IMG/VR virus record: IMGVR_UViG_3300024264_000194
Location: 1-21,013 of that record
Direction: 5' to 3' (one strand)
DNA from: a virus
DNA length: 21,013 nt
Positions 3,087 through 21,013 of this stretch are shown piece by piece. The notes beneath the pieces are model-generated. The model was not told the DNA's origin and searched no databases. It saw only the letters and a list, made by a program, of their open reading frames with translations. The position numbers and the translations under genes are program-made. Numbering within the stretch: the stretch's first letter is position 1; every line of letters starts with the position of its first letter.

Positions 3087-3554
3087 TTATTTATATGATA
3101 TTTTTTTGTTAAATTCTATTTCGTCTTGAATAAATTCTTTGTCCTTATATTTATTCTCAATATCATATACGAAAGTTTTTGTATTGTTCTCGGCCAACTC
3201 AAAATTGTGATATTTGACATATCTTTTCTGTAATGCTTCTGTACCCGTCACGGTATACACAAGTTTGCATTCATTGTCAATGGCTAATTTACATAATTCA
3301 TCTATACAAATTTTTAACGCCTTGTGTGAATCCCTATCTGATATATTTTTGTCTCGTACCACCCATTCCATAAAACCGAATGCAGTTCCTTGTCCAATAT
3401 ACAAACCCCCACCGCAAATCGGTTTATCTTCTTTTTCTATCATTATTCCTAATGGTGGCAAACACTCTATTGGCACAATTCCAAAATCCCATTGTTGCCA
3501 CCATTTTGTTAAAAATTCATAATCTGTTTTCAAATTCCATTTTCTAAAATTCAC
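3087..3554 (-). CDS. GNAT-like acetyltransferase-fold protein, 155 aa
   Basis: A small soluble protein starts at GTG; the GTG overlaps the TGA of the upstream Hint-fibre gene (GTGA), with GGAG 11 bases upstream. Its pattern matches a GNAT-like family common in marine T4-like phages: an N-terminal YEFLTKWWQQW segment, LPPLGIMIE, a Gly-rich strand ICGGGLYIGQG, EWVVRDKNISDRDSHKALK at the usual acetyl-CoA strand-loop-helix position, and a C-terminal helix RYVKYHNFEL. The canonical Q/RxxGxG/A loop is not clear, so catalysis is doubtful. GNAT enzymes move acetyl groups from acetyl-CoA to amines; phage members beside fibre genes have no assigned substrate that I know of. Translational coupling to the fibre gene suggests work on, or assembly with, that product. 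The fold is likely; the function is inference. Confidence 0.75.
   Translation of the reverse strand: MNFRKWNLKTDYEFLTKWWQQWDFGIVPIECLPPLGIMIEKEDKPICGGGLYIGQGTAFGFMEWVVRDKNISDRDSHKALKICIDELCKLAIDNECKLVYTVTGTEALQKRYVKYHNFELAENNTKTFVYDIENKYKDKEFIQDEIEFNKKISYK
3088..3095 (-). promoter_or_regulatory. T4-type late promoter (TATAAATA) overlapping a stop codon
   Basis: The minus strand reads TATAAATA, an exact late-promoter octamer, sharing two bases with the TAA stop of the GNAT-like gene (3087-3089). It lies 33 bases before the ATG at 3054. It would start a transcript for the 782-residue virion protein independently of the fibre/GNAT pair. Confidence 0.68.
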
Positions 3555-6500
3555 TTGTTTATAATCTCCATTGTTTTTTGTTTTGATATAGGGTCTTGAT
3601 CCTGCCAGTCATTAAAATATTCATCTCCGACTAACTGCAATTTTTCTTTTTCGTGTATTTCAAAATAATCGGTAAAAGTAATTCCTTCAATTTCAAGTCT
3701 ACGATTTTCCGTACCGAAATTGTATGTAGTCACAACTTCATCAGAAATAAAGTTGCTATCGGCAGAATCTTTCACTTGAATCCATTTACCATTTTCTAAA
3801 ACCAAATGAGATCCCGAAACTTTGATACCATGATAATCGTGCAAATCATCACAGATAAATTTACCACAAGCAAATATCCGGCCGCCGATTTTGACACTTT
3901 CGCCTAGATCAATAGTTTCTATGGCCTTTTTTGTCCCATCTTCCATTGTCACCATTGTGCCTGCAAGGAAACATAAATTAATATCCCACCACTTATCTTT
4001 TTTCTTCACCCATGTATGTGCTACAGATGTTCCAGTGCCGGTGGTGTCTGTGCCCCTATAACCACAACTAAAATAAGTAGTACTCTGTGCGGTAGTTCCA
4101 TAAGTACTGTATGCCAGACCCTCCCAATTATCTTTAATCCAATATATTCCTCTAGTATCTGTTCCATCGGACGTGTCGATGGTTGCAAACTTCGTTCCAA
4201 ATAATGCTGGAAAATTTGCAGAGGTTAGGTTTTTACCATTAATGGTCCAATTAGTATTATAAGGCCCCAGCACACGACCATTGCCCCATTTATAATTAAC
4301 TCGATGGGCAAGGGGGTGGTTTCGTATGCCGGAAGCGTCCGAATTGGATTTATCAATTTTAACAGCGGGGGGATTATTTCCGCTTAAGTAAAACCCACCC
4401 ATTCCTGTATATGTAACTGCCATATCAGCACTTGCGAATGAGTTCATTCCACCGCTTTCGTCGAGTTGCATTTGACCTCTATTTCTCACATACGATGCAA
4501 GCCTATTAGCTGCAGATTTATTTCTTCCTGTGCCATCTAAATGCTGTGGTTTTAATACATATCTTTCCTGAGAGGCCATGGTGAATTCTACAACACTTTG
4601 ACTTTTGCTTAATGTAAATGAAGAGGGCCCGCCACCTCTATTTGTTGGAACAGCTGTAGACGCAACTTTTGTAAATGTAGCTGTGTTGCTATAACTTCCA
4701 CGATGAGTCAACTCGAATTTGACATTGCAGGTCGAAGTAAACCAATTATCAATATTTTCAAAATCAGTTACTTCTCTAGGTATATAGTTACCCGATACCT
4801 GTTCAACAGTGAGCGAAGTATCTGGATTATTATATAATCCTTCTAAAGCAGGGCTATTTAAAAATATTTTTCTTCCTAATACTTCTACCTTTACTGATTT
4901 TTTCCCCACATGACAAAATCTGGTTTTCATTGGCACATCGCCATTTTTTCCAATTCTAGCACTAAATCTTAACCGATACATTTTTGGATTATTTACATCA
5001 TCCGATCCCATTACATCTACACTTCTAGCAGAAGTCATCGATCCTTGAAAAGTTGTTACTCCGCGAACTGAAACATTTTTTGCATAGGAAGATGCCAAAA
5101 TATCGCCAAATTCATCTTCTAATATCCAGCCTGGGTGGGTCACTTTTGAATGAGAATGTCCATAAGATCCTATTACCTGAACGACACCATCTCCGCCATA
5201 ACCAGATTCGGAAATTCGTGAGCTCGTACTACCTTTAAATCCATCAATTCCGTATTCGACTGTCTCTGGGTCAAAATCGTTGAATTGATTTTCGCTACTT
5301 CTTCCACCAGCACCAACAGAAATATTTATGATATCCCCACCGTTTACTTCAAAGTCTCCGAAATATCCAGTAACACCAGCTTGTCCTGCTTCAGTGCCTG
5401 TATATCCGCTTTCATCTGATCCGCGGCCGCCGTGCTGACCAGCTGCGCCACCAACGCCAAAGGATGTAACAGGCACTTGAGTTATCGCAGTTTGACGTTC
5501 ACCAGCATATGTGTATTCAATGCCCGGTGCGCCTCCTGTGCCAAACAAAGAATCTTCGCCGAGTCCAGACTCACGGTTGACCGCATGACCACGATTATCT
5601 ACATATGATACTTTGTGTAAAATGTTAATAGGAAAATTGTTTCGACCAAAAGAAATACTACCGTTAGCAGGAACCATTGTGTTTGATACGATATATTCTG
5701 ATGGTGTATCAGCTGATTTATTTTCGTACGAAGTTGCAAATCCGCCGACTACAATTGGATTTTCTGTTGTAGCTATTGTTTGATCGTATAAATTGCCTGT
5801 TTTAACGACTCCACCTACTTCAGAGACATCGCCGCCGCCGGCACCACCTCTTAATTCTATAGATGCGTTTTCCATCCAAATAGAAGAATCTCTACCATCA
5901 TAACCGCGTTCAACAATACCTTTGGTTTTTTTATTTTTTAATTCATCGCCGGATACAATAGTTTTTTGAACACTACCAGAACCACCACCAGAAGATATTA
6001 CAATTCTAAGTCTTTTAAATTTTTTGGGTACGATCATTTGCCACTGGCCAGGCGCAAAGCTTGTTGTAGGTAATCCCATTGCCGCAGCAACAGAAGACGT
6101 ATTTTCTAAGATTCTTTCGTATCTAAGATCTTCTCCCAGTTCACTACCAATTTCAAATTTCAATGCAGGAATTGTTATTGTTGCAGATTTGTTAAAAACT
6201 GGTATTACCATTGAAGCTTCAGTATCATCTCTTCCTACATATTCATTTGTTGAATCTTGTACTTGATCCCAGTTATCTACGCCTTGACCGAAAAGATGGA
6301 ATGAATCTGTGCAAAGTTCTGGAATTGGCCAAAAATATTCGGATTGCAGTCCTGTTCCATGAAAATCTGACCACTTTATTTCTCGAGGAGTGCCAGATCT
6401 ATACAGTGGAATGGATGTATTACTCACGAAATCTTTTACATTTCCATTTGGATGCGCCCTATAATATTCGCTTATTGAGTGAGGCGAACTATTAGTAGAT

Positions 6501-7988: not shown

Positions 7989-10900
7989 TTAACTCGCCAA
8001 TGCAATTATTCTTAGGTCTTTTACCCTTGGCACAATTGCCGAATTTTCAGTTGTCATTACAATTTTTACCGAAACCGAAGTAAATTCTGGTAAATTTTGC
8101 AAATCGAATTCAAACTCTTTAAAATCTTCAGGACCAAATGATTCTGTTTCATAAGCTTCTGGTCTTTCCATTAACACCCAAGGTCTATCCACAAATACCT
8201 GCTCTTCCGATGTTTTGATTCTATAATAAAAATCAACATCACATGGAGACTGTCTGCATACTGTAGCAATAGTTTTCAAAGAACTCGAACCCTGATCCAA
8301 TGTAACTTCTTTTGTTATATATTTAGTTGCAATCGAACCGCCTGTGGGTTCGGTTTCTGCGACAAATCCCGTATTAACATAACCTCTTTGTCCGACAGTA
8401 GTATTGGATGGACTATTTGTTTTGTTTGATACAAGAATTGCACTCATTCTCTGCGTATCGACAACAGGTGAAATATTAGCCATTGTGGAAGTTAGATTTA
8501 ATTTTATAACCAAAGATTTTTTATCAAGCGCAGTACCCGAAGTGTTAAAAATTCTTTCGTTTGTATTTGTTGCCATCATCTTGGGCGAAGAAAATTCGAT
8601 ATTTTGATTGGGAACAAAATAGTTATAATTCTGATCTTTAATTCCTGGCACTCTATTTGAATCTTGAGATGTACCAGACAATCCCCGAACTTGCGCCGCA
8701 ATATCAGTATTTGGTAATTCTATTGTTTGTATGATTGGTTTTATCAAATCATACTTGAAATTACTTTTAAACCTCGGCGAAGAAGTTGTATTACTTTTTG
8801 GAGTATATGTGTTTGTCACTGTCGGCAATTCTGCAGCAGAGTAAGCAATACTTTCTGTGGTAGATCCTTGAGCATAAAAATTGTTTCTCATATCAATAGT
8901 GAACGTATTATAAGTTGTTCTAGTAACTAGGTGGTCCCCATTAAAAGATTCTGATGGAAATACATCATATGTTCCGTGAAAGTCAGATAGAGTTACATAA
9001 TTATATCCCTGACCAGCCCATCGATCAGTCGGCACAAATCCAGAAGAGTCATTAATATCAAATGTAATTTCTGATGAATTTTCAGTTATTTTCATACTCT
9101 GTGGGCCAAATTCTTTAGTCCAAAGATCGTTATTATTATCATCATATTCTGAATTTTCTAAAATCACTTCTCCCCGAGCAGATGTATCAAATACAGCACG
9201 ATTTACTCTGAATTTCAAATCTTCCATTTGATCTGCTGTCCAAGTAGAAGCATTTTGAGACTTAAAGAAAACTCCAGCATGTGGTTGGGCAGAAATTATT
9301 CCACTACCATCTACGGCTTCTTGGCCCATTCTTGAAATATGACATCTATATCCTTGGGTATCGGCAAGTATCACAATACAATATTCTGTCTCATCTGCAC
9401 AATATATCGGCGAAGGAAACTCAAATTGTGTCGGTTCCGTACCCAATTCAGACACAACAACATCTTTCGGATATACAACTTTTTCTCCTAAGATCTTTGG
9501 GCCAGGATATCCATTTACAGTGTGACGAATTTGACATGTAACTGGTTTGAAATCATCCTTGGTGGAAAAGAATAGATCGACAGAAGTAATGAATATACCC
9601 CCATCCATATCAACCATAATAGTTTGTGCCAGTGGGTCGTACCAACCGCCACGCATCTCTATAAATGTGTTTGGATTCATTCTCTCTTCGGCAGGCTCTG
9701 TCTCGGAGACATCGTTTACTGAAAATTCTGGCACTCTTGTCAAAACAATTTGATCAGCAACAGTTTCAATAATACCTGTAGCGGAATATGTCGTTTGACA
9801 TTCTGTATCCGCATCGGCTGCATTATTTACCTGATCCGACATTCTAAATATTCTTTCGCCAGTTTTGAACTTTAAATTATCACTGTTTGGAATAGAGAAT
9901 ATTCCAGAAATAAATCCAGCTTCGTCTGTAGTTAAACTAGAATTTGCAGCAACCAAGTTGTCACCCGTAGGTAATGTTCCTACTCGTTTTTCTGAAAATC
10001 CTGTAGGACTATCTGGATCGGGCCAACTAACAGTCATTTGTTCGCCTGCGGAAAATGTGCTCGCTGGGCCCAACGATCCGCTCTGATGATCTGGTCCCAC
10101 ATGCAGTTTGATAGATGTTTCACTTATCCAATCAATATCATACAAATTAACTTGATGTTCACTATTATCTCCTTTAAGGATAATTTTTCCCCTGTTGTCG
10201 ATAATAGTATTTCTGTTGTTCTTAAACCATTCAGAAATTACCTCATTTGTATCTGTAAATATAAATTTTCTAGTACTTTCACAAAACTCTGAAACTGCTA
10301 CTCCATCAAAAAACGCATATAATTTAGTATTCGGTTTCATTCTCTCAGCAGAAAAATAAACATTTCTTGAACGAATATAAGGAATCACTTCAGTTTTCAG
10401 AGTTTTGGTGCCATAACTTTCTCTTTTATCTAAAGGAGCAACGGTTGTCCGTTGTCCTGTGCGAGTTTTTGTGCCCACTCTTTTTTGCTGAACCGTAACA
10501 TTCCAAGTTCTTGGCACTCCGCGATTGCCGTGAAGCGCTGGTCTTGCCCATTTGTAGTCGTAATTCTGGCGCCAAGATCTTTTTGTAGAACTTCTCCCTG
10601 TCTCTTCGATACCTGTCCAGTTCTTTTCCCATTCTCCCCATTCTGTTCCCATAACTCCATCAGCAGGCAATAAATGTTCAAAGACTTCATATTCGCCTCT
10701 TTTATCTGTTACAATATCCGGCGCTGTGATCGTATCTTTCCAATCATCGGTTGCGGGGAAAATATTTAAAAATCCTCTAAAAGAGAAAATTGCAAAAGGA
10801 TTGACATTGATTGTTTTAGAAGATTTCTCTTGGGCCATAATCTGTTCACTGGTATACGGCAAATAAACTTTTTGTTCTTTGATAGCATATCCACTTGATT

Positions 10901-13900
10901 CTAGTGGATTGATAGAAAGATTTACATTTTTTGATGTATGGAAAGGACGCAATTCTCCTTTGTCACTATCAATTGCCACTCTATAATCTGGATTTGCTGT
11001 TGCGCCGACACTATGATTTTGAAACTGATCTACAATAAATCCATTTTTAAATCTATCATTTCCATCCGCATCTGTAACTGTCATATCTAAGGTATCTTTT
11101 TCTAACAAGTTTAAACTTGTATAATATTCTAAAGTAGATATTCTTTTATCTAATTTTCCTATATCTCTCATAGTATATCGTCTATTATCCATCATAGAAA
11201 CTGATATAGCTTGTGGGCCGACTGTATATGGTTCTGTAGACAATTCATATATAACCATACCATCTGTAGGATCTATCGGCATCACAGGATCTATTGAAGG
11301 ACTTCCATATTTTAATAAGAATTTACCCTTTGGTGTCACATAAAGTTTGTCATTTCTGCCGAGATATGCCTGAAGGTCTGCACTAATAGCACTACCTGTT
11401 CTTGGATAATCCCTTGTCGTATTGTTTACAACACCTTTAACATTTGGCCAACCACCGCCAACTAATCCACTAGAACCATCGAGTTGTGACCACTCTAAAG
11501 CAGGCCTAAAGTCTAAAACATCGGATAACCTAAAATTCTCAAAATATCCAATATTATTATAATCACTATATGAATCTACTGAGGCATAATCACCAGTACC
11601 ATGATTCCAATAAGTATATATTAAAATAGGTCGTCCTTTACATCCCTCGGCCGCTCCGCGAAGATTTACTTTTCCAAGTCCTAAAACATTTAATTTAGAT
11701 CCATCATTTAAAATATATCTATCGGTAACATCATTTATCTTAACGGGTATATCTGTCTGATTTGGAATTGCGGTCACACCAGAAACAAACATATTCAAAA
11801 TTTCGCTAGAAAATGGATTTTCTATACCAGCCTTTGTTAGACCAGCTTCAACAAGTTCATATGTCATTGTATTAGTGCCGTTTTGCAAACTTACATCGAA
11901 TGGACTAGAACCTGTCTGTTCCCAAAACTCATATGCTTTCAGCGCAAATTCAAATTCTGCCTCCGACATTTGATGAATATTTTTCTTATCCGAAGAATCT
12001 ATTCCGACTCTGTATGCATAATTGTTGACATTACATGTATCATATAGTTTTTTTAATTCTATAACGTCTGAATGGTGTAACTGATATTGATTTATAGACA
12101 CATCTAATGTAGTACTGGTTCCCAATCCGGTTAATGTAGTGAGTAACTGGCCAGAGGAGGTAGTTCTTTGAGAAGCGATATCGGTATCATATGTATTAGT
12201 ATTGTTTGTATCATTAGTAGCAACATTAGAATTCCAGTTAATACCTGTTATATTTGCACCCGTCAAAGTTGACAATGTAAATGGCATTAATATTTGAGTA
12301 TTTTCTGTTTTGATTTTTTCTTTAGATTGAGTTTTTCTAACCGGAACTGAAACATTTAAACTATTTGAACTTGATATAGAGGTGGTAAAAGTAACCTCTT
12401 TCAAATCGACCGAGAAGCTGAAAGCCGACTGAACTCCTACTACTCCAGCACTGATAGATGTTCCATTAGCGGGTTGCCATACATTATACAAAGATGTCGT
12501 CTGTTCAAAATATTCATCTGCGGCCGCTAAGGTAAGAGTTACCGAACCACCAGCAGTACTAGACTCACCTATAAACTGTTTCATAACAGAATATTGTGTG
12601 TCTACTGAGGCAGTTCCGCTAATATCATCTATGCTGCGTACTGTCTGTACCCACCTGCTGCCTGTGTCGATCATACTGCTACCTTTGGACGCAGTTACTA
12701 CAGATGTACTAAAAAGTCTACCAGAAACGCCCGTATCGGTAATGGTGGTGTCTGTAGCATTGCCACTATTTGCAAATGTTCCCGATGAACTTACACCATT
12801 CGCCTCTAATATTATTCTGTTAAGAGAAAAACTATCTCTTGGTAGAATATTAGCATCACCAACTTGACTATTCAGGCCGCCAGCGTTACCAGAATTCAAC
12901 GGTTTTACCAACAAAAGTCCAGTATATTGATTATAATAATATACTATTCCCCTAATTGCATCGTTATCTTTTTCATACAACATAGTTTTTGTGGAAAATT
13001 GACCATTGGTTTGCATTGTAGACATTTTTGTTAATATATTTGAACCGAAATCATACACTTTAGAAGAACCATGAGTTTCCACTGAAGTCAGAGATCTAGC
13101 ATTTGCCATGGTATATTCAGCACCAGTTCTAGGATTAGTTTCGAATTCCAAATCATACAAATAGACTTTATATATTGCTGATTCTTGGCTAGAAACTGGT
13201 GGTCTAAAGTCTGAGGTTGTATAGTTATTTCCCCGTGCGCCGCTACTGGAGTCATCATAATAATGGAATGCCTTAACTTTTGCAGTACCGACAATATCAA
13301 TGCCATATGTATTTGCACCTAAAACACCATTCGACAAAGTACCAGATTCAAACATATTTGTTGGAATTTCGCCGGCAACTCCATCGACTGTCACTCCTGC
13401 AACACTTTGGGAAGTGTTTGCAGAATCAGCTGAAACTGAAATCCATTTCTCCGACGCGCCTGAACCAATATGACAATTAACCAAATTAACACTACTATCA
13501 ACCTTTGGCAACCCCTTGACATCAGAAACTAGAATATATGGGCCCAGATCTACAGGAATAAATTCATTATTTTCCTTATATACTTCTCTTGATTTGTCAT
13601 ATATAAGGTATTTGCCTTCTTTTGTCAATGCCTTTGATTCTATTTCATATCCTTTTACATATGCCTTACCAGATTCAATACCAATCGCAATTTTATCTCT
13701 TACTGCATTTAATAAATTTTCGTGTGTAACGCCGGGATAATATTTTGTCTGAGTCGTATCCAGCACCTGATTTGGATAGTTTCTAATATCCTGCTGTGTA
13801 ATTTGGTGAGACTGTCCGACACCATCTATAGTCATTCCATAATCATCGGGCATTTTACTTTGAGCCCACCAAATAGCATCAACTTCTTTGTCAAACACAA

Positions 13901-15017
13901 AATCGGACATATCAAAAACACCATTATTGCTGTTTTCTTTATAATATTCTCTAATATCCAACTTGAAAGGTCTTACAGTATAATCACCAGATTCATCGTA
14001 AGTTCTTCTGGCCAATGTTTTCATAAGAATTTCATAATCATCTCTTGCCGCTTCTTTTGCTATAAGACCACCATCAACACTGATTAATTCTACAAAATTT
14101 GCAGTGTCTATTACATCAAAAGGTTTCTTTACCAATGTCAATTTTACTTGCAATCTGTCTGCGCCAGGCGCGTTATAGTTTACACTACCCAAAGATGTAT
14201 CAAGCAGGGAATCGTCATCGTTAGAGGTTATAACAGTTTCGGAAACTTCTAAACCAATTTTCACAGAAGGATTTGGAGTGTACTTACTCAAAACAATACT
14301 TTGAGACTGACATTTTACTAATTGTCCACCAATATAATAAACGCCTTCTTCAATAAATCCAATACTACCTCTACCAATAGGATTGGAAACAACAGAATTT
14401 GACATAACTTCGCAAGTTAAAGTTGTTCCATCAGTAGATGTTGTTACAAGAGTTTCGCCTTCAACGAATGTAGAAGTCGCGCCTTCGTCGATAGTAATGG
14501 TTTCTCCGTTCACTGTAAATGTTGTTTGGCCGGGGACCGTATTCTCAATCAATACTAATCCAGAACCAGTATTTACTTGAGTAGTAGGTACAGGAGCACC
14601 ATCCAAATATTTCAAATACAATGTGGTTGGTTCATCTCCATCTAATTCATAATCAGTAAAATCTCCATCGCTATTTCCATCTATAATATCTACATGCTTA
14701 ACGACTAAAGCTTTCAATCCGGTTTTATTGCCTTGTACTACTTTTCCTACAAAATCATTTGCAGATGGCAGAGCGGTTGGAAGCATAACTTTTACATATT
14801 GGGCGTTTAGATCAAGTGCCGCTTGGCCAGGAATTACCATTGCACCTTCTTTGAAAAAATGATCGGACAAATTACTAATTTGTTGTTGCAACAAACTCTG
14901 CATCTGAGTCAATTCTCTTGCCTGAATTGAATTGCCAGGCTTGAATAGTATTTTTAAATATCCCTTATTAATATCATAATCGTCAAAATAGGGGGTGACA
15001 TTAAGATTTAAAGTCAT
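7989..15017 (-). CDS. Giant DUF4815-family tail/baseplate structural protein, 2342 aa
   Basis: Residues 10-65 carry the DUF4815 opening (PYFDDYDINKGYLKILFKPG, QARELTQMQSLLQQQI, FFKEGAMVIPG). Later family landmarks are MRDIGKLDKRISTLEYYTSL (near 1285), RFKNGFIVDQFQNHS (near 1320), NVNPFAIFSFRGFL, KPNTKLYAFFDGVAVSEFC (near 1565) and DPLAQTIMVDMDGG with VDLFFSTKDDF (near 1800). Proteins with these motifs are virion components of marine T4-like phages, encoded just after gp8 where T4 has gp9 and gp10. Residues 113-124 form an EF-hand-like loop. The middle is Ser/Thr/Asn-rich and beta-like, as in fibre shafts. The ATG at 15017 follows GAGAGAAGAAAC; no late octamer lies in the 32-base gap after gp8, so it is probably co-transcribed with gp8. 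The frame is open throughout. Family assignment is firm; the exact virion position is inferred. Confidence 0.85.
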   Translation of the reverse strand: MTLNLNVTPYFDDYDINKGYLKILFKPGNSIQARELTQMQSLLQQQISNLSDHFFKEGAMVIPGQAALDLNAQYVKVMLPTALPSANDFVGKVVQGNKTGLKALVVKHVDIIDGNSDGDFTDYELDGDEPTTLYLKYLDGAPVPTTQVNTGSGLVLIENTVPGQTTFTVNGETITIDEGATSTFVEGETLVTTSTDGTTLTCEVMSNSVVSNPIGRGSIGFIEEGVYYIGGQLVKCQSQSIVLSKYTPNPSVKIGLEVSETVITSNDDDSLLDTSLGSVNYNAPGADRLQVKLTLVKKPFDVIDTANFVELISVDGGLIAKEAARDDYEILMKTLARRTYDESGDYTVRPFKLDIREYYKENSNNGVFDMSDFVFDKEVDAIWWAQSKMPDDYGMTIDGVGQSHQITQQDIRNYPNQVLDTTQTKYYPGVTHENLLNAVRDKIAIGIESGKAYVKGYEIESKALTKEGKYLIYDKSREVYKENNEFIPVDLGPYILVSDVKGLPKVDSSVNLVNCHIGSGASEKWISVSADSANTSQSVAGVTVDGVAGEIPTNMFESGTLSNGVLGANTYGIDIVGTAKVKAFHYYDDSSSGARGNNYTTSDFRPPVSSQESAIYKVYLYDLEFETNPRTGAEYTMANARSLTSVETHGSSKVYDFGSNILTKMSTMQTNGQFSTKTMLYEKDNDAIRGIVYYYNQYTGLLLVKPLNSGNAGGLNSQVGDANILPRDSFSLNRIILEANGVSSSGTFANSGNATDTTITDTGVSGRLFSTSVVTASKGSSMIDTGSRWVQTVRSIDDISGTASVDTQYSVMKQFIGESSTAGGSVTLTLAAADEYFEQTTSLYNVWQPANGTSISAGVVGVQSAFSFSVDLKEVTFTTSISSSNSLNVSVPVRKTQSKEKIKTENTQILMPFTLSTLTGANITGINWNSNVATNDTNNTNTYDTDIASQRTTSSGQLLTTLTGLGTSTTLDVSINQYQLHHSDVIELKKLYDTCNVNNYAYRVGIDSSDKKNIHQMSEAEFEFALKAYEFWEQTGSSPFDVSLQNGTNTMTYELVEAGLTKAGIENPFSSEILNMFVSGVTAIPNQTDIPVKINDVTDRYILNDGSKLNVLGLGKVNLRGAAEGCKGRPILIYTYWNHGTGDYASVDSYSDYNNIGYFENFRLSDVLDFRPALEWSQLDGSSGLVGGGWPNVKGVVNNTTRDYPRTGSAISADLQAYLGRNDKLYVTPKGKFLLKYGSPSIDPVMPIDPTDGMVIYELSTEPYTVGPQAISVSMMDNRRYTMRDIGKLDKRISTLEYYTSLNLLEKDTLDMTVTDADGNDRFKNGFIVDQFQNHSVGATANPDYRVAIDSDKGELRPFHTSKNVNLSINPLESSGYAIKEQKVYLPYTSEQIMAQEKSSKTINVNPFAIFSFRGFLNIFPATDDWKDTITAPDIVTDKRGEYEVFEHLLPADGVMGTEWGEWEKNWTGIEETGRSSTKRSWRQNYDYKWARPALHGNRGVPRTWNVTVQQKRVGTKTRTGQRTTVAPLDKRESYGTKTLKTEVIPYIRSRNVYFSAERMKPNTKLYAFFDGVAVSEFCESTRKFIFTDTNEVISEWFKNNRNTIIDNRGKIILKGDNSEHQVNLYDIDWISETSIKLHVGPDHQSGSLGPASTFSAGEQMTVSWPDPDSPTGFSEKRVGTLPTGDNLVAANSSLTTDEAGFISGIFSIPNSDNLKFKTGERIFRMSDQVNNAADADTECQTTYSATGIIETVADQIVLTRVPEFSVNDVSETEPAEERMNPNTFIEMRGGWYDPLAQTIMVDMDGGIFITSVDLFFSTKDDFKPVTCQIRHTVNGYPGPKILGEKVVYPKDVVVSELGTEPTQFEFPSPIYCADETEYCIVILADTQGYRCHISRMGQEAVDGSGIISAQPHAGVFFKSQNASTWTADQMEDLKFRVNRAVFDTSARGEVILENSEYDDNNNDLWTKEFGPQSMKITENSSEITFDINDSSGFVPTDRWAGQGYNYVTLSDFHGTYDVFPSESFNGDHLVTRTTYNTFTIDMRNNFYAQGSTTESIAYSAAELPTVTNTYTPKSNTTSSPRFKSNFKYDLIKPIIQTIELPNTDIAAQVRGLSGTSQDSNRVPGIKDQNYNYFVPNQNIEFSSPKMMATNTNERIFNTSGTALDKKSLVIKLNLTSTMANISPVVDTQRMSAILVSNKTNSPSNTTVGQRGYVNTGFVAETEPTGGSIATKYITKEVTLDQGSSSLKTIATVCRQSPCDVDFYYRIKTSEEQVFVDRPWVLMERPEAYETESFGPEDFKEFEFDLQNLPEFTSVSVKIVMTTENSAIVPRVKDLRIIALAS
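14646..14681 (-). other. EF-hand-like calcium-binding loop coding segment
   Basis: Codes residues 113-124 of the DUF4815-type protein: DGNSDGDFTDYE. This fits the 12-residue calcium loop (Asp1, Asn3, Asp5, Gly6, hydrophobic 8, Glu12). It lies in the structured N-terminal region between beta-like strands, so it may be a single dockerin-like or viral calcium loop rather than a paired EF-hand. Confidence 0.45.
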
Positions 15018-16774: not shown

Positions 16775-19700
16775 TTAGTCGATTGTCGCGGTTTCTAAAA
16801 TTTGATTTAATTCTTCGACAGTCGAAGGTATATTTGTTGTCGTATATTTTACTAATGTAGATTCGGATGCGAAATTGGTTTTGTCGTTCATAGTGCCTGG
16901 CGATATAAATTTTTCGAATGTATTTTCATCAAGTACATCATCATTATAGTCTGAACCCGACTGCAATTTTTCATTAAATTTTGCGCGTTCGACAGATAGA
17001 TTTGTCGGGCCCATTCTTTTTCTGGTTCCCGATAAAGGATTTTCTTCAGACATAATCAAATAAACAGGGGAAATATTTACGATAGAATCCAAAACTGCCC
17101 TATATTTCCTATCAGATTTTGTGACAACATCGGACATAATAGTATTTCTCCATTTATGATCGGTGCCATCGGTAGTAGGAATCCATTCACCATTACCATT
17201 AGCTTCAACAGGCAAATTATACCACATATTATAATCTGGATGTCTTACTGCTATATGTGTCAAATTATTTCCTTGTACCAATTTTCTATGAATATTATAA
17301 GGCGAACCTACCATTTCCGAAGAAGGACTAAACATTTGTTGTACCAATTCACGCCAAGGATATATATCTCTAAAATAAAACTTAAATCTTTCGAGGGATC
17401 TCCAAGTCGTATGTAATGTCGGAACATCGCCTTCTTTGTTATTGTTAAATCTTCCAGAAATATTTATGATCATTTTTTCATCGCGGGGATTGGCGCCGTC
17501 TGCAATAGAACCAATCCAACTATTAGCGTTTCTGTCCACATTTCCTCTAAATATATTATCCCATCTAAATTCTACTTTGTTCGGTCCGCCAAATGTGACA
17601 TTATCCCATTCTGGCAGATCAGCCGTATAACTTGAAATTAAATCGACATCGTATACAACATATCGTTCTCCGACTGATGAATCTATCAGGGCCCCAGTGA
17701 TTTCATACTTTCCCCAAGGTTTTGTGTTTATCCAATTATTATCAACCATATTTTCATCTGAAGTATCGTAAATAGTTACAGTATTTCCTATAAGTCCTGA
17801 AGTGTAATAATGGGAATAATCTTTTCCATACGCTTCTCTAAAATTCAACGCAATCTTTTTGACCTGCCACCATCCACCAGAAGCATTTGTACCATCCGCC
17901 TGCAAAAGCGCATACCTACCAGATCCAATATCTACGGTTGTCGATCCAGCGGTGTCATCGGACACCTCTCCTTCTCCTACACCATTATACATTCCGTCTA
18001 TTGTTGAATTTACACTTAGTTGTCTATTATCATAAGTGAAAATATTTCCATGTGAATTTAAATAATTGGTGTCCTGTCTGGTCGAAGTTGGATACCAATA
18101 TCCATCAGTTTGTCCATATGCCCATCGGCCTAGTCCATCCATATTTTTAATTTTCATATTAACATTTTTAATGATTTCATATATAAGTTGGGTCCATGCA
18201 ATACCCGCACCCTTTCTCACTTCGGCATCTGTGGTAATACTATATTCTCCAAACATCATCAATCCAGCTGGGTGGACCACTCTTTTAACAATTTTTCTCC
18301 ATTCATCGATATATCGTCCGACTTTTACAACATATGAAAACTCCTGCCACAAATACCCATCATACAATCTATTATCATCAGACAAAAATCCCTGTTTATT
18401 TAAAAACTCGCCAGATCTAACGCAGAGTGGTCCTGTCAACACCGTTGCAGTAGCTTGTCCATCACCAAATGAAGTTAGATCAATCGTGGGTGGAGTCGTA
18501 TAATCGACACCAAATCCTTCGCTTTCAGATTGATAGGAATTTCCTTTTATTCTAAAACTTTCTATTTTACCTATATTTTCTCCATGGCCCTTGAACCAAG
18601 CTCCAGATCCAAGAGACTTATAAGAATTAGTATAATCTTTGACATAACCATATGGTTTTTTCATATAATTATTTCCAGATGTAGATAAAGACACAACACT
18701 GATTTCAGCTCTGGGTTTTGATGACCAAGAAACTCGCAAAGAATTTCCATCCGGTAAAGCATAGGTAGAATATATACCATTTTCATCAGATTTTCTCAGA
18801 GAAATTTTATTAGCAGATACCGGATGATTTTCATTACGGATAATATATTCGACATCATCTTCAAGAACGCTCAAATAACTTATTTCTATGATTTCGTCTA
18901 TCCCCAAATCGGGAGAAAATGTAATGCCGCTGGCCATACCACTTATAGAATTTCCAAGAGAATCCAAAGCCTGCGTCAACGCAAACTGAGCTCCCGACTG
19001 GCCAGGTTGAATTAGTTCTGAAGTGGTTGTAACTATTTCACCAGAGGCAGCAGTAGAATTTACACTTCTAGTAATTCTAGGAGTTTCGTTCATATCGAAC
19101 ATCATAGAAAATGCAGATTTATTTGATTCTGTCACCTTAAATTGAATTTTTAATGGTTCGGATTGTCGAATTGTTTTAACAGAAGGAATTGGATTTACAT
19201 ATATTGGATTCAATCCAACACCAGAGATAGAATTATCAGTACCCGTATCTTCGATAAGACCAGAGACTTCATCATATCTCTGCCCGGTTGTAAATCTGAG
19301 AGTTCCAAAGAAAGCATGATTATAATCTTCTATAGAATATGATGGGTCTTCTTTTTGTCTAGCACCCAAGTAAAAATTCTTTATTGGTTTTGAATATGTT
19401 AGAGTAACAGTATCACCTACTGATAAAGTTTTCCCCCATTGAATAGTAGTCCCGTTAGTATTTAAATTGACTTGCGGCGAGTCGGAGTATACTCTGGTAA
19501 TAGATGAAGGTCCTGACATATAATTGATACCGATTTCGATAGGACTGTTTGGGTCATATGATTTTGTAATACCTGTCGTGTTTGTAGAATCAATAGTGAT
19601 TGTTTCTGTATACTCTCCATATTCCGAAATATCAAAATAACTACCATCTCCAATTGCGATATAGTCTTGTCCATCGACATAAACTTTAGATTCTGTTGGT

Positions 19701-21013
19701 CCTAAAAATACTGCAATATGATGCCAGTCGCCAAAAGAAATAGCTGAGCTGGTTTGCGATACAGTCCCATTCCCAAATTCCAACCTACCATCTGGAAGCT
19801 GTTGTAAAAATGTTTTTTGTGCGCCGCCTACAGATTCATTTATAGAAAATATAGATGCACCATTATAAGCACCACTAATTTCAGTACCCTTTCGGAAATA
19901 CCAAAAATCAATAGTAATACCATCCGTGGAATTTTTTCTAAATGTTTCGCCAATATCCGACAGTCTCATATAACCAGAATCAGTAAATATTGCATTTTCG
20001 CCAACCTGATCTATTTTTGCAGAAAATCCATTTTTAACCCATTGATGTGCTAAAACAGAACCTTTGAAAGTCAAAACTTGTCCTACATTATATCCCGTTC
20101 CGACTTTGCCCGGACTAACACTTGCGGAATAGACATCATTTATAATATCAACATCGAATTCTGCACCTTGGCCTTTGACCGAATTTGTAGAAACGTCTAA
20201 AATTTCAAATACATTTTTAGACGTACCTAATATAGAAGAAACCCCGACGATTCCACCGTTGCCATCAATATCCGAAACTTCAAAACTCAAATCATTTGCT
20301 GGCGCGTCACCACCCAAAGATGAGCCGGAGATAGCTATAGTGTCTCCCAATCCATAACCAGTACCCCTATCGGAAATACTAGGGGATTTTACTTGATATA
20401 CATTACCGTTTCTTTCAACAAAAAATTTCGCCCCAGATCCTACTACCGAAGAGTTGGATGGAGTCAAGGTAAACGAAGGGTTATAATGACTGTCACTAAC
20501 ATCGGGGATATTTGGTGTGCCGAGAACACTAAACGAAGATATTTGTCCCACAGGAGAGATACCAGAAAAAGAAAATTCCTGTATTCTTCCAATAGGGTCG
20601 ACTTGGTCTACGATAATTGTTAAGTCGTTTGTTGGAGATATACCTCCCAATAATGTGCCAGGGATTTTAAATATATCATTTACAGAATATCCAATAGAAG
20701 ACGGAGAATCTGCCAATCTAACAAAAATGGATATAGGATATGGGTTTGAGGTTGGCAGATTCATACCTGTACTGACATTCCAACTAGCATTCACGCCACT
20801 AATTGATGTGGTGGTATATCCGGCAGTTGAACTAATAGGGTCCTCTTGATTAATTCCAATAAAATCGGTCCCAGACGTGACGGTATCTATTTTTATAAGA
20901 ATATCATTTGTACCCGATATTCCATTTGGTCCAAGTCGACTCCCATCAATCTTCAAAACATCATTATTTAAATATTGAAATCCCAATCCAGAAGAACTAG
21001 ACAGAATACTTAA
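16775..21013 (-). CDS. Giant baseplate/tail structural protein at gp7 position, N-terminus cut by window edge
   Basis: The frame stays open to the right edge, giving 1412 visible residues with no start. A TTG at 20986 falls inside a repeat unit and is not a credible start. The first 320 or so residues hold four copies of a G-x-G-Y-x-V-x-D-x-x-x-I-x-G-x-x-LGG-x-x-x-x-NDL repeat. A LamG/concanavalin-like domain follows (ITIDFWYFRKG, SFGDWHHIAVFLGP, KVYVDGQDY). The C-terminal half includes LSDDNRLYDGYLWQEFSYVV and RRVVHPAGLMMFGEYSI-like text (written KRVVHPAGLMMFGEYSI in the sequence), a pattern recurring in large marine-phage tail proteins. It is transcribed directly ahead of gp8, the place of gp7, the T4 wedge initiator (1032 residues). 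Its size and position suggest a gp7 counterpart, but I see no decisive sequence match. Virion role: likely; gp7 identity: tentative. Confidence 0.75.
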   Translation of the reverse strand, partial: LSILSSSSGLGFQYLNNDVLKIDGSRLGPNGISGTNDILIKIDTVTSGTDFIGINQEDPISSTAGYTTTSISGVNASWNVSTGMNLPTSNPYPISIFVRLADSPSSIGYSVNDIFKIPGTLLGGISPTNDLTIIVDQVDPIGRIQEFSFSGISPVGQISSFSVLGTPNIPDVSDSHYNPSFTLTPSNSSVVGSGAKFFVERNGNVYQVKSPSISDRGTGYGLGDTIAISGSSLGGDAPANDLSFEVSDIDGNGGIVGVSSILGTSKNVFEILDVSTNSVKGQGAEFDVDIINDVYSASVSPGKVGTGYNVGQVLTFKGSVLAHQWVKNGFSAKIDQVGENAIFTDSGYMRLSDIGETFRKNSTDGITIDFWYFRKGTEISGAYNGASIFSINESVGGAQKTFLQQLPDGRLEFGNGTVSQTSSAISFGDWHHIAVFLGPTESKVYVDGQDYIAIGDGSYFDISEYGEYTETITIDSTNTTGITKSYDPNSPIEIGINYMSGPSSITRVYSDSPQVNLNTNGTTIQWGKTLSVGDTVTLTYSKPIKNFYLGARQKEDPSYSIEDYNHAFFGTLRFTTGQRYDEVSGLIEDTGTDNSISGVGLNPIYVNPIPSVKTIRQSEPLKIQFKVTESNKSAFSMMFDMNETPRITRSVNSTAASGEIVTTTSELIQPGQSGAQFALTQALDSLGNSISGMASGITFSPDLGIDEIIEISYLSVLEDDVEYIIRNENHPVSANKISLRKSDENGIYSTYALPDGNSLRVSWSSKPRAEISVVSLSTSGNNYMKKPYGYVKDYTNSYKSLGSGAWFKGHGENIGKIESFRIKGNSYQSESEGFGVDYTTPPTIDLTSFGDGQATATVLTGPLCVRSGEFLNKQGFLSDDNRLYDGYLWQEFSYVVKVGRYIDEWRKIVKRVVHPAGLMMFGEYSITTDAEVRKGAGIAWTQLIYEIIKNVNMKIKNMDGLGRWAYGQTDGYWYPTSTRQDTNYLNSHGNIFTYDNRQLSVNSTIDGMYNGVGEGEVSDDTAGSTTVDIGSGRYALLQADGTNASGGWWQVKKIALNFREAYGKDYSHYYTSGLIGNTVTIYDTSDENMVDNNWINTKPWGKYEITGALIDSSVGERYVVYDVDLISSYTADLPEWDNVTFGGPNKVEFRWDNIFRGNVDRNANSWIGSIADGANPRDEKMIINISGRFNNNKEGDVPTLHTTWRSLERFKFYFRDIYPWRELVQQMFSPSSEMVGSPYNIHRKLVQGNNLTHIAVRHPDYNMWYNLPVEANGNGEWIPTTDGTDHKWRNTIMSDVVTKSDRKYRAVLDSIVNISPVYLIMSEENPLSGTRKRMGPTNLSVERAKFNEKLQSGSDYNDDVLDENTFEKFISPGTMNDKTNFASESTLVKYTTTNIPSTVEELNQILETATID
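19637..19981 (-). other. LamG/concanavalin A-like domain coding segment
   Basis: Codes about 115 residues opening with SGYMRLSDIGETFRKN, then ITIDFWYFRKG, a Phe-Ser-Ile strand, LPDGRLEFGNG, SFGDWHHIAVFLGP and KVYVDGQDY. The order of strand, F-W, W-H-H-I-A-V and V-Y-V-D-G is that of laminin-G-like jelly rolls, often sugar-binding. The fold is well supported by pattern; the ligand is unknown. Confidence 0.6.
20006..21013 (-). repeat. Array of four G-Y/LGG/NDL protein repeats
   Basis: Minus-strand coding copies lie near 20879-21013 (GLGFQYLNNDVLKIDGSRLG then SGTNDILIKI), 20561-20698 (IGYSVNDIFKIPGTLLGG then SPTNDLTIIV), 20225-20365 (GTGYGLGDTIAISGSSLGG then APANDLSFEV) and 20006-20098 (GTGYNVGQVLTFKGSVL). 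The fourth loses the NDL part and leads into the LamG-like domain. Spacing is irregular. Such repeats are common in large tail proteins of marine T4-like phages. The array probably continues past the right edge. Confidence 0.65.

Follow-up and report, generated by a model that had tools for sequence, protein, structure and literature searches.

The window, by which we mean the whole stretch of DNA analysed (21,013 nt of virus record IMGVR_UViG_3300024264_000194), contains a gene for a large glycine-rich surface protein whose C-terminus resembles a Hint domain, and the question raised by this locus is what such a self-processing fold would do at the very end of a phage virion protein. The 21-kb record carries T4-type tail genes, including a gp8-like wedge gene, a DUF4815 protein and a sheath. 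Nearest cultured relatives of its DUF4815 protein were mostly cyanophages and pelagiphages (31–36% identity). This DUF4815 protein was very long (2342 aa; 7989–15017) and was without the C-terminal module present in its relatives. A 1403-aa protein (16775–20986) gave a weak Laminin_G match. The Hint-bearing product was labelled a fibre or adhesin in the preliminary description, which is plausible from its N-terminus and gene neighbourhood, although its backbone (residues 1–862) matched no family model; homologues of the backbone were found on contigs L003, L004 and L005.

Identification of the terminal Hint domain

Features of the locus are collected in Table 1. Forty-six unique terminal-Hint sequences were aligned, with pairwise identity as low as 42%. 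Pfam Hom_end_hint matched 43 of the 46 and Vint matched 12; the window protein itself matched Hom_end_hint at E 5e-4, under the gathering score. Searches with the single sequence returned weak Pfam Hint matches at block A and, in the PDB, a block-B match to the Neq split intein, and the 46-row profile was matched in the PDB by the Neq intein at block B (E=0.0016) and by PI-SceI at block A (E=0.046). The domain was modelled with AF2 from a 14-row alignment (pLDDT 62, pTM 0.58; residues 965–988 poor), and the model was compared with the PDB by Foldseek, which returned BIL2 (6y75), a Tetrahymena Vint domain (8r2c, rank 2) and a further BIL (2lwy), followed mostly by inteins, at TM about 0.5 and with two matches at E ≤ 0.001. 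The horseshoe beta fold was recovered in this model at moderate confidence, and the Hint identity put forward in the preliminary description was borne out by Pfam, PDB profiles and structural matches to BIL and Vint domains alike. By sequence and model, residues 863–1002 are a member of the Hint superfamily in which Cys1, the block B His and the horseshoe beta fold are all present.

Table 1. Coordinates of the features of the Hint locus in the window
Feature	Position	Strand	Basis or detail
Gly-rich adhesin/fibre gene, 1002 aa	3551..6559	-	residues 1–862 backbone, 863–1002 Hint
C-terminal Hint domain, residues 863–1002, 140 aa	3554..3973	-	Pfam Hom_end_hint, AF2 and Foldseek, PDB profile
Codon of Cys863, the Cys1 of the Hint; N-S acyl shift and scission at 862/863 predicted here	3971..3973	-	kept in 46/46
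His918 codon, block B His56	3806..3808	-	kept in 46/46
FTDYFE block-F-like motif, residues 962–967, in place of intein block G His-Asn	3659..3676	-	FTDY in 46/46
35-residue C-terminal extension with near-invariant Asn1001	3554..3658	-	helices in AF2 model (DSSP), partly low confidence
Partner gene, 155 aa, phrog_17252, faint GNAT-like signal	3087..3554	-	GTG start overlaps fibre stop by 4 nt (GTGA)
Unit replaced by CCTA domain in sister phages	3095..3983	-	DNA homology gap against L032

In the 1002-aa translation Cys863 begins CFLAGTMV and His918 lies within KVSGSHLVL, at the positions first described. The two residues correspond to Cys1 and His56, which were invariant in all 46 unique relatives and were the sole conserved Cys and His, so their occurrence in the window is not a matter of chance. 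The block-B Thr of TxxH was replaced by Ser in 41 sequences (including that of the window) and by Ala in five, and the usual block-F Asp was not conserved; FTDY was invariant. What had been taken for a TDYFE-type ending is present as FTDYFE but is not the protein end, since 35 further residues follow, with Trp in 36/46 and Asn1001 (N139) in 45/46 relatives. No block G His-Asn and no C-extein were found, in agreement with the earlier reading that a splice-type C-terminal Asn and a +1 nucleophile are absent. Cys1 was usually preceded by a Gly-rich linker and marked the border between linker and domain, and the residue at −1 was not restricted (Leu862 in the window, Pro in L166 and L172).

Distribution and backbones

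Contig scans placed the terminal Hint in about 88 uncultivated virus contigs, which are related and do not stand for 88 events. Wherever a terminal-Hint protein was read as far as its stop, the Hint was the last domain, and a single copy was present per contig, even in a contig of 152 kb. An all-against-all comparison divided the backbones into at least eight groups unrelated to one another; these include the DUF4815 baseplate protein, the adhesin described here, fibres with Gly-rich repeats and proteins that end in a Gly-zipper. The Hint-bearing backbones are mostly virion proteins, although not each of them is proven to be one. Backbones of ~270 aa ended in a membrane-like Gly-zipper (VGGPIGGVIGG..) directly before Cys1 (L125–L130, L139, L142, L143, L147–L153 and L155–L161). 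In tblastn searches of 50,697 phage records with the Hint, there was no match or, at most, weak ones at block A to inteins and other Hints, and 84,980 cellular genomes yielded generic Hints only. The Hint of contig L031 was of a different kind, carried a long tail and had no partner gene.

The overlapping partner gene

Downstream of the Hint lies a second gene, the partner, and phrog_17252 was matched by 11 of 12 partner sequences. By profile search one copy of the partner was present in each of 19/19 Hint contigs versus 0/17 contigs carrying the alternative CCTA domain described below (Fisher p about 1e-10 if independent, which the contigs are not fully). A reverse scan with the partner profile recovered 66 loci, two of which were uninformative, their upstream sequence being merely 51 and 71 nt; the Hint was upstream in 64/64 informative loci, and in 63 of these the distance from the Hint stop to the partner was −29 to +18 nt, counts that are not independent given that Hint contigs are phylogenetically related. 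Identities of Hint and partner were correlated (r=0.56; 0/2000 permutations). An Asp/Asn hydroxylase gene stood between Hint and partner in L029 and L030. Among divergent terminal Hints, L185 had a SET gene in place of the partner, and L189 and L195 were without one.

Occurrence of the partner with a Hint everywhere was considered and rejected: distant homologues in cultured flavobacterial phages (L110:4369–4878, L112:4477–4887, L113:4477–4884) adjoin virion structural genes that lack a Hint, and the linkage is therefore confined to this Hint subfamily. Profiles from Pfam, NCBIfam and the PDB did not confirm the GNAT identity first assumed from the look of the partner: Acetyltransf_1 (GNAT) was found faintly in 2 of 42 sequences (best E 0.028), and no match was obtained with PDB profiles. 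For this reason the partner is called only phrog_17252. Enzyme genes were also seen to overlap the stops of such virion genes, namely a SET methyltransferase (L185:3245–3694), an Asp/Asn beta-hydroxylase (L029:6416–7090) and a fatty acid desaturase (L214:2795–3562). The two-gene unit terminates at least eight phage genes of unrelated kinds, most of them virion genes, and this grafting suggests a shared finishing step. The preliminary description covered neither the partner gene nor the exchange described below nor the spread over many backbones.

Exchange with the CCTA domain

The adhesin of L003 and its allies was homologous only up to residue 862 and continued with a 107-aa helical domain starting [ST][HY]CCTA, for which AF2 gave five helices (pLDDT 83) and which matched nothing in Pfam or the PDB. 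One scan detected this CCTA domain in 44 viral contigs (one of which ends 15 residues in); it was C-terminal wherever the end was seen, was carried by virion proteins of several kinds, including the DUF4815 protein, and did not co-occur with the terminal Hint in any contig tested. CCTA...WQEGYDIWGK was invariant in the aligned set (examples at L003:6608–6940 and L037:5001–5321). At the DNA level the window was 73% identical to L032 up to position 3983, where homology stopped 10 nt before the Cys863 codon, and homology was regained (77%) at 3095, a position within the end of the partner gene. Because it stops before the Cys863 codon and resumes at the partner end, the exchanged unit is the Hint together with its partner.

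This exchange bears on two other accounts of the locus. The Hint fold could be an inert structural or binding tip of the virion protein, its bond left uncut, and replacement by a helical domain at the same site as well as the loss of the block B Thr and block F Asp would fit such a role. Against it, no Cys or His other than Cys1 and His56 is invariant in the 46 sequences, which are spread over many backbones, and Cys1 is placed at the linker–domain border; an inert domain is fairly unlikely. The terminal domain could alternatively be an effector of Hint or CCTA type that is delivered with the virion, sometimes released by a BIL, the overlapping partner serving as its guard as in polymorphic toxins. 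C-terminal domains are indeed exchanged at a single junction, where just one of the alternatives comes with an overlapping gene, BIL domains are followed by differing C-terminal domains (below), and a HINT just upstream of toxin domains is a known toxin-release layout (PMC3482391). Against this, the genes 3' of the CCTA domain on adhesin and DUF4815 backbones were the ordinary next tail genes with no guard gene, nothing follows the terminal Hint, no toxin family was matched, and divergent terminal Hints occur without the partner; a guarded payload is highly improbable.

Predicted reaction and its outcome

Since block G His-Asn and the nucleophile are absent, only the N-terminal reaction is possible. 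Judged from sequence and model, the domain retains what the first Hint reaction needs (Cys1, block-B His, horseshoe fold) and lacks what the later ones need (His-Asn, +1 nucleophile, C-extein). Hint domains with Cys1 and a block-B His but without a C-terminal Asn can form and release a thioester and are unable to splice (PMC4031507, PMC7664689). We favour, at about an even chance, a C-terminal autoprocessing cassette in which a virion-protein-fused Hint with an overlapping partner gene severs the protein at 862/863 and releases the Hint. An N-S acyl shift would turn the 862–863 peptide bond into a thioester on Cys863, which water or a simple nucleophile would resolve, freeing the adhesin at Leu862 together with a 140-aa domain; the size (residues 863–1002) and the cut before Cys863 proposed in the preliminary description both stand as predictions from the Hint evidence. 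The partner may take part, for instance as activator, inhibitor or acceptor. By analogy, such action would resemble that of a BIL or Hog domain reduced to its first half. The cleavage and its timing are predicted.

Hint homology, the invariant catalytic pair, the C-terminal position, the absence of block G, the partner linkage, the clean replacement by CCTA and the tandem BIL forms described below all speak for an autoprocessing cassette. Points against it are the moderate AF2 model, block-B Ser or Ala, loss of the block-F Asp, the free −1 residue, the partnerless L189 and L195 and the SET gene of L185. Release is favoured over specific coupling, which we regard as possible and distinctly less probable, and over the inert domain. 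Coupling would be a Hedgehog-like transfer of the thioester to a specific acceptor (protein amine, lipid or glycan), chosen by the partner, the helical extension or both. It would agree with the restriction to an N-terminal reaction, with the obligate partner gene and with an extension bearing a near-invariant Asn after block F, where Hog domains have their adduct-recognition region (PMC2362128); yet no family-level similarity was found between the extension and Hog regions, and the GNAT-like signal of the partner is faint. A full phage-encoded covalent coupling system is unlikely. In it, the Hint would activate the virion-protein C-terminus as a thioester, which the partner would hand on to a specific acceptor, and unrelated virion proteins would in this way become attached to another virion or host-surface component; CCTA-type domains would then serve the same end by an alternative, interchangeable route.

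Comparison with known Hint systems

Phage Hint domains have been reported as inteins in replication and packaging genes (PMC3556154, PMC5526547), and within the open-access literature, to which the search was confined, no paper was seen to describe a terminal Hint on virion proteins. By the features tested, the terminal Hint is not an intein, a type A BIL, a Vint or a PT-HINT. With BILs it shares the Hint fold, Cys1, the block-B His and the lack of a +1 nucleophile, but it is without a C-flank and block G and has an obligate partner gene. Type A BILs end in His-Asn, whereas type B BILs are without block G and cleave both flanks (PMC4031507). Like the Hedgehog Hog domain, it is a C-terminal Hint limited to the first step and followed by an extra C-terminal segment, but here there is no secreted signalling domain and no demonstrated sterol region, and sequence match is limited to a short block A motif. 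Vint domains share the Pfam Vint match and the 8r2c structural match, and differ in that the adhesin has no VWA match or Vwaint domain, is virus-borne and has a different partner. PT-HINT systems likewise show modular C-terminal swapping, an overlapping downstream gene and a Hint near the end of a large surface protein; here the Hint is last, no toxin follows, and CCTA occurs on adhesin and baseplate genes without a guard gene. GsCelA self-truncation (PMC9185962), retrieved under BIL terms, was set aside, its own text stating that no known self-cleaving domain is present.

The obligate partner makes this a testable two-component system, for which the clean CCTA exchange offers a natural comparison. 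The cassette could bring to light that, in uncultivated phages, tail and other virion proteins mature by self-truncation or covalent coupling; the terminal Hint itself might be turned into a new tag that forms thioesters, for use in protein chemistry.

Tandem BIL forms

In L124 and L131–L134 a BIL (Cys1, TSEH, VVHN-K) precedes the terminal Hint, that of L124 being cut at its start. The C-terminal His-Asn typical of type A BILs, absent from the terminal Hint, is present in the separate upstream BIL of L131–L134. These forms bear on whether the terminal Hint is a decayed intein left at a gene end. Hint homology without His-Asn would be expected of such a remnant, but a single protein can hold a complete BIL and a terminal Hint as distinct domains, the catalytic Cys and His are strongly conserved, the terminal Hint occurs on at least eight backbones, and the partner is obligate. 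An empty-allele comparison found the Hint-less adhesin to carry the CCTA domain, with no continuous extein restored. A decayed or splicing intein was rejected on the absence of block G and a C-extein and on an alternative tail in place of an empty site; we hold it to be exceedingly improbable. When the profile of the terminal Hint was compared with that of the upstream BIL, only block A could be aligned. A scan with the upstream BIL recovered alternative C-terminal domains in the same place, several of them helical with a [VI]CT motif like that of the CCTA family; as a BIL can be followed by either a terminal Hint or CT-type domains, both behave as interchangeable end modules, with or without the BIL.
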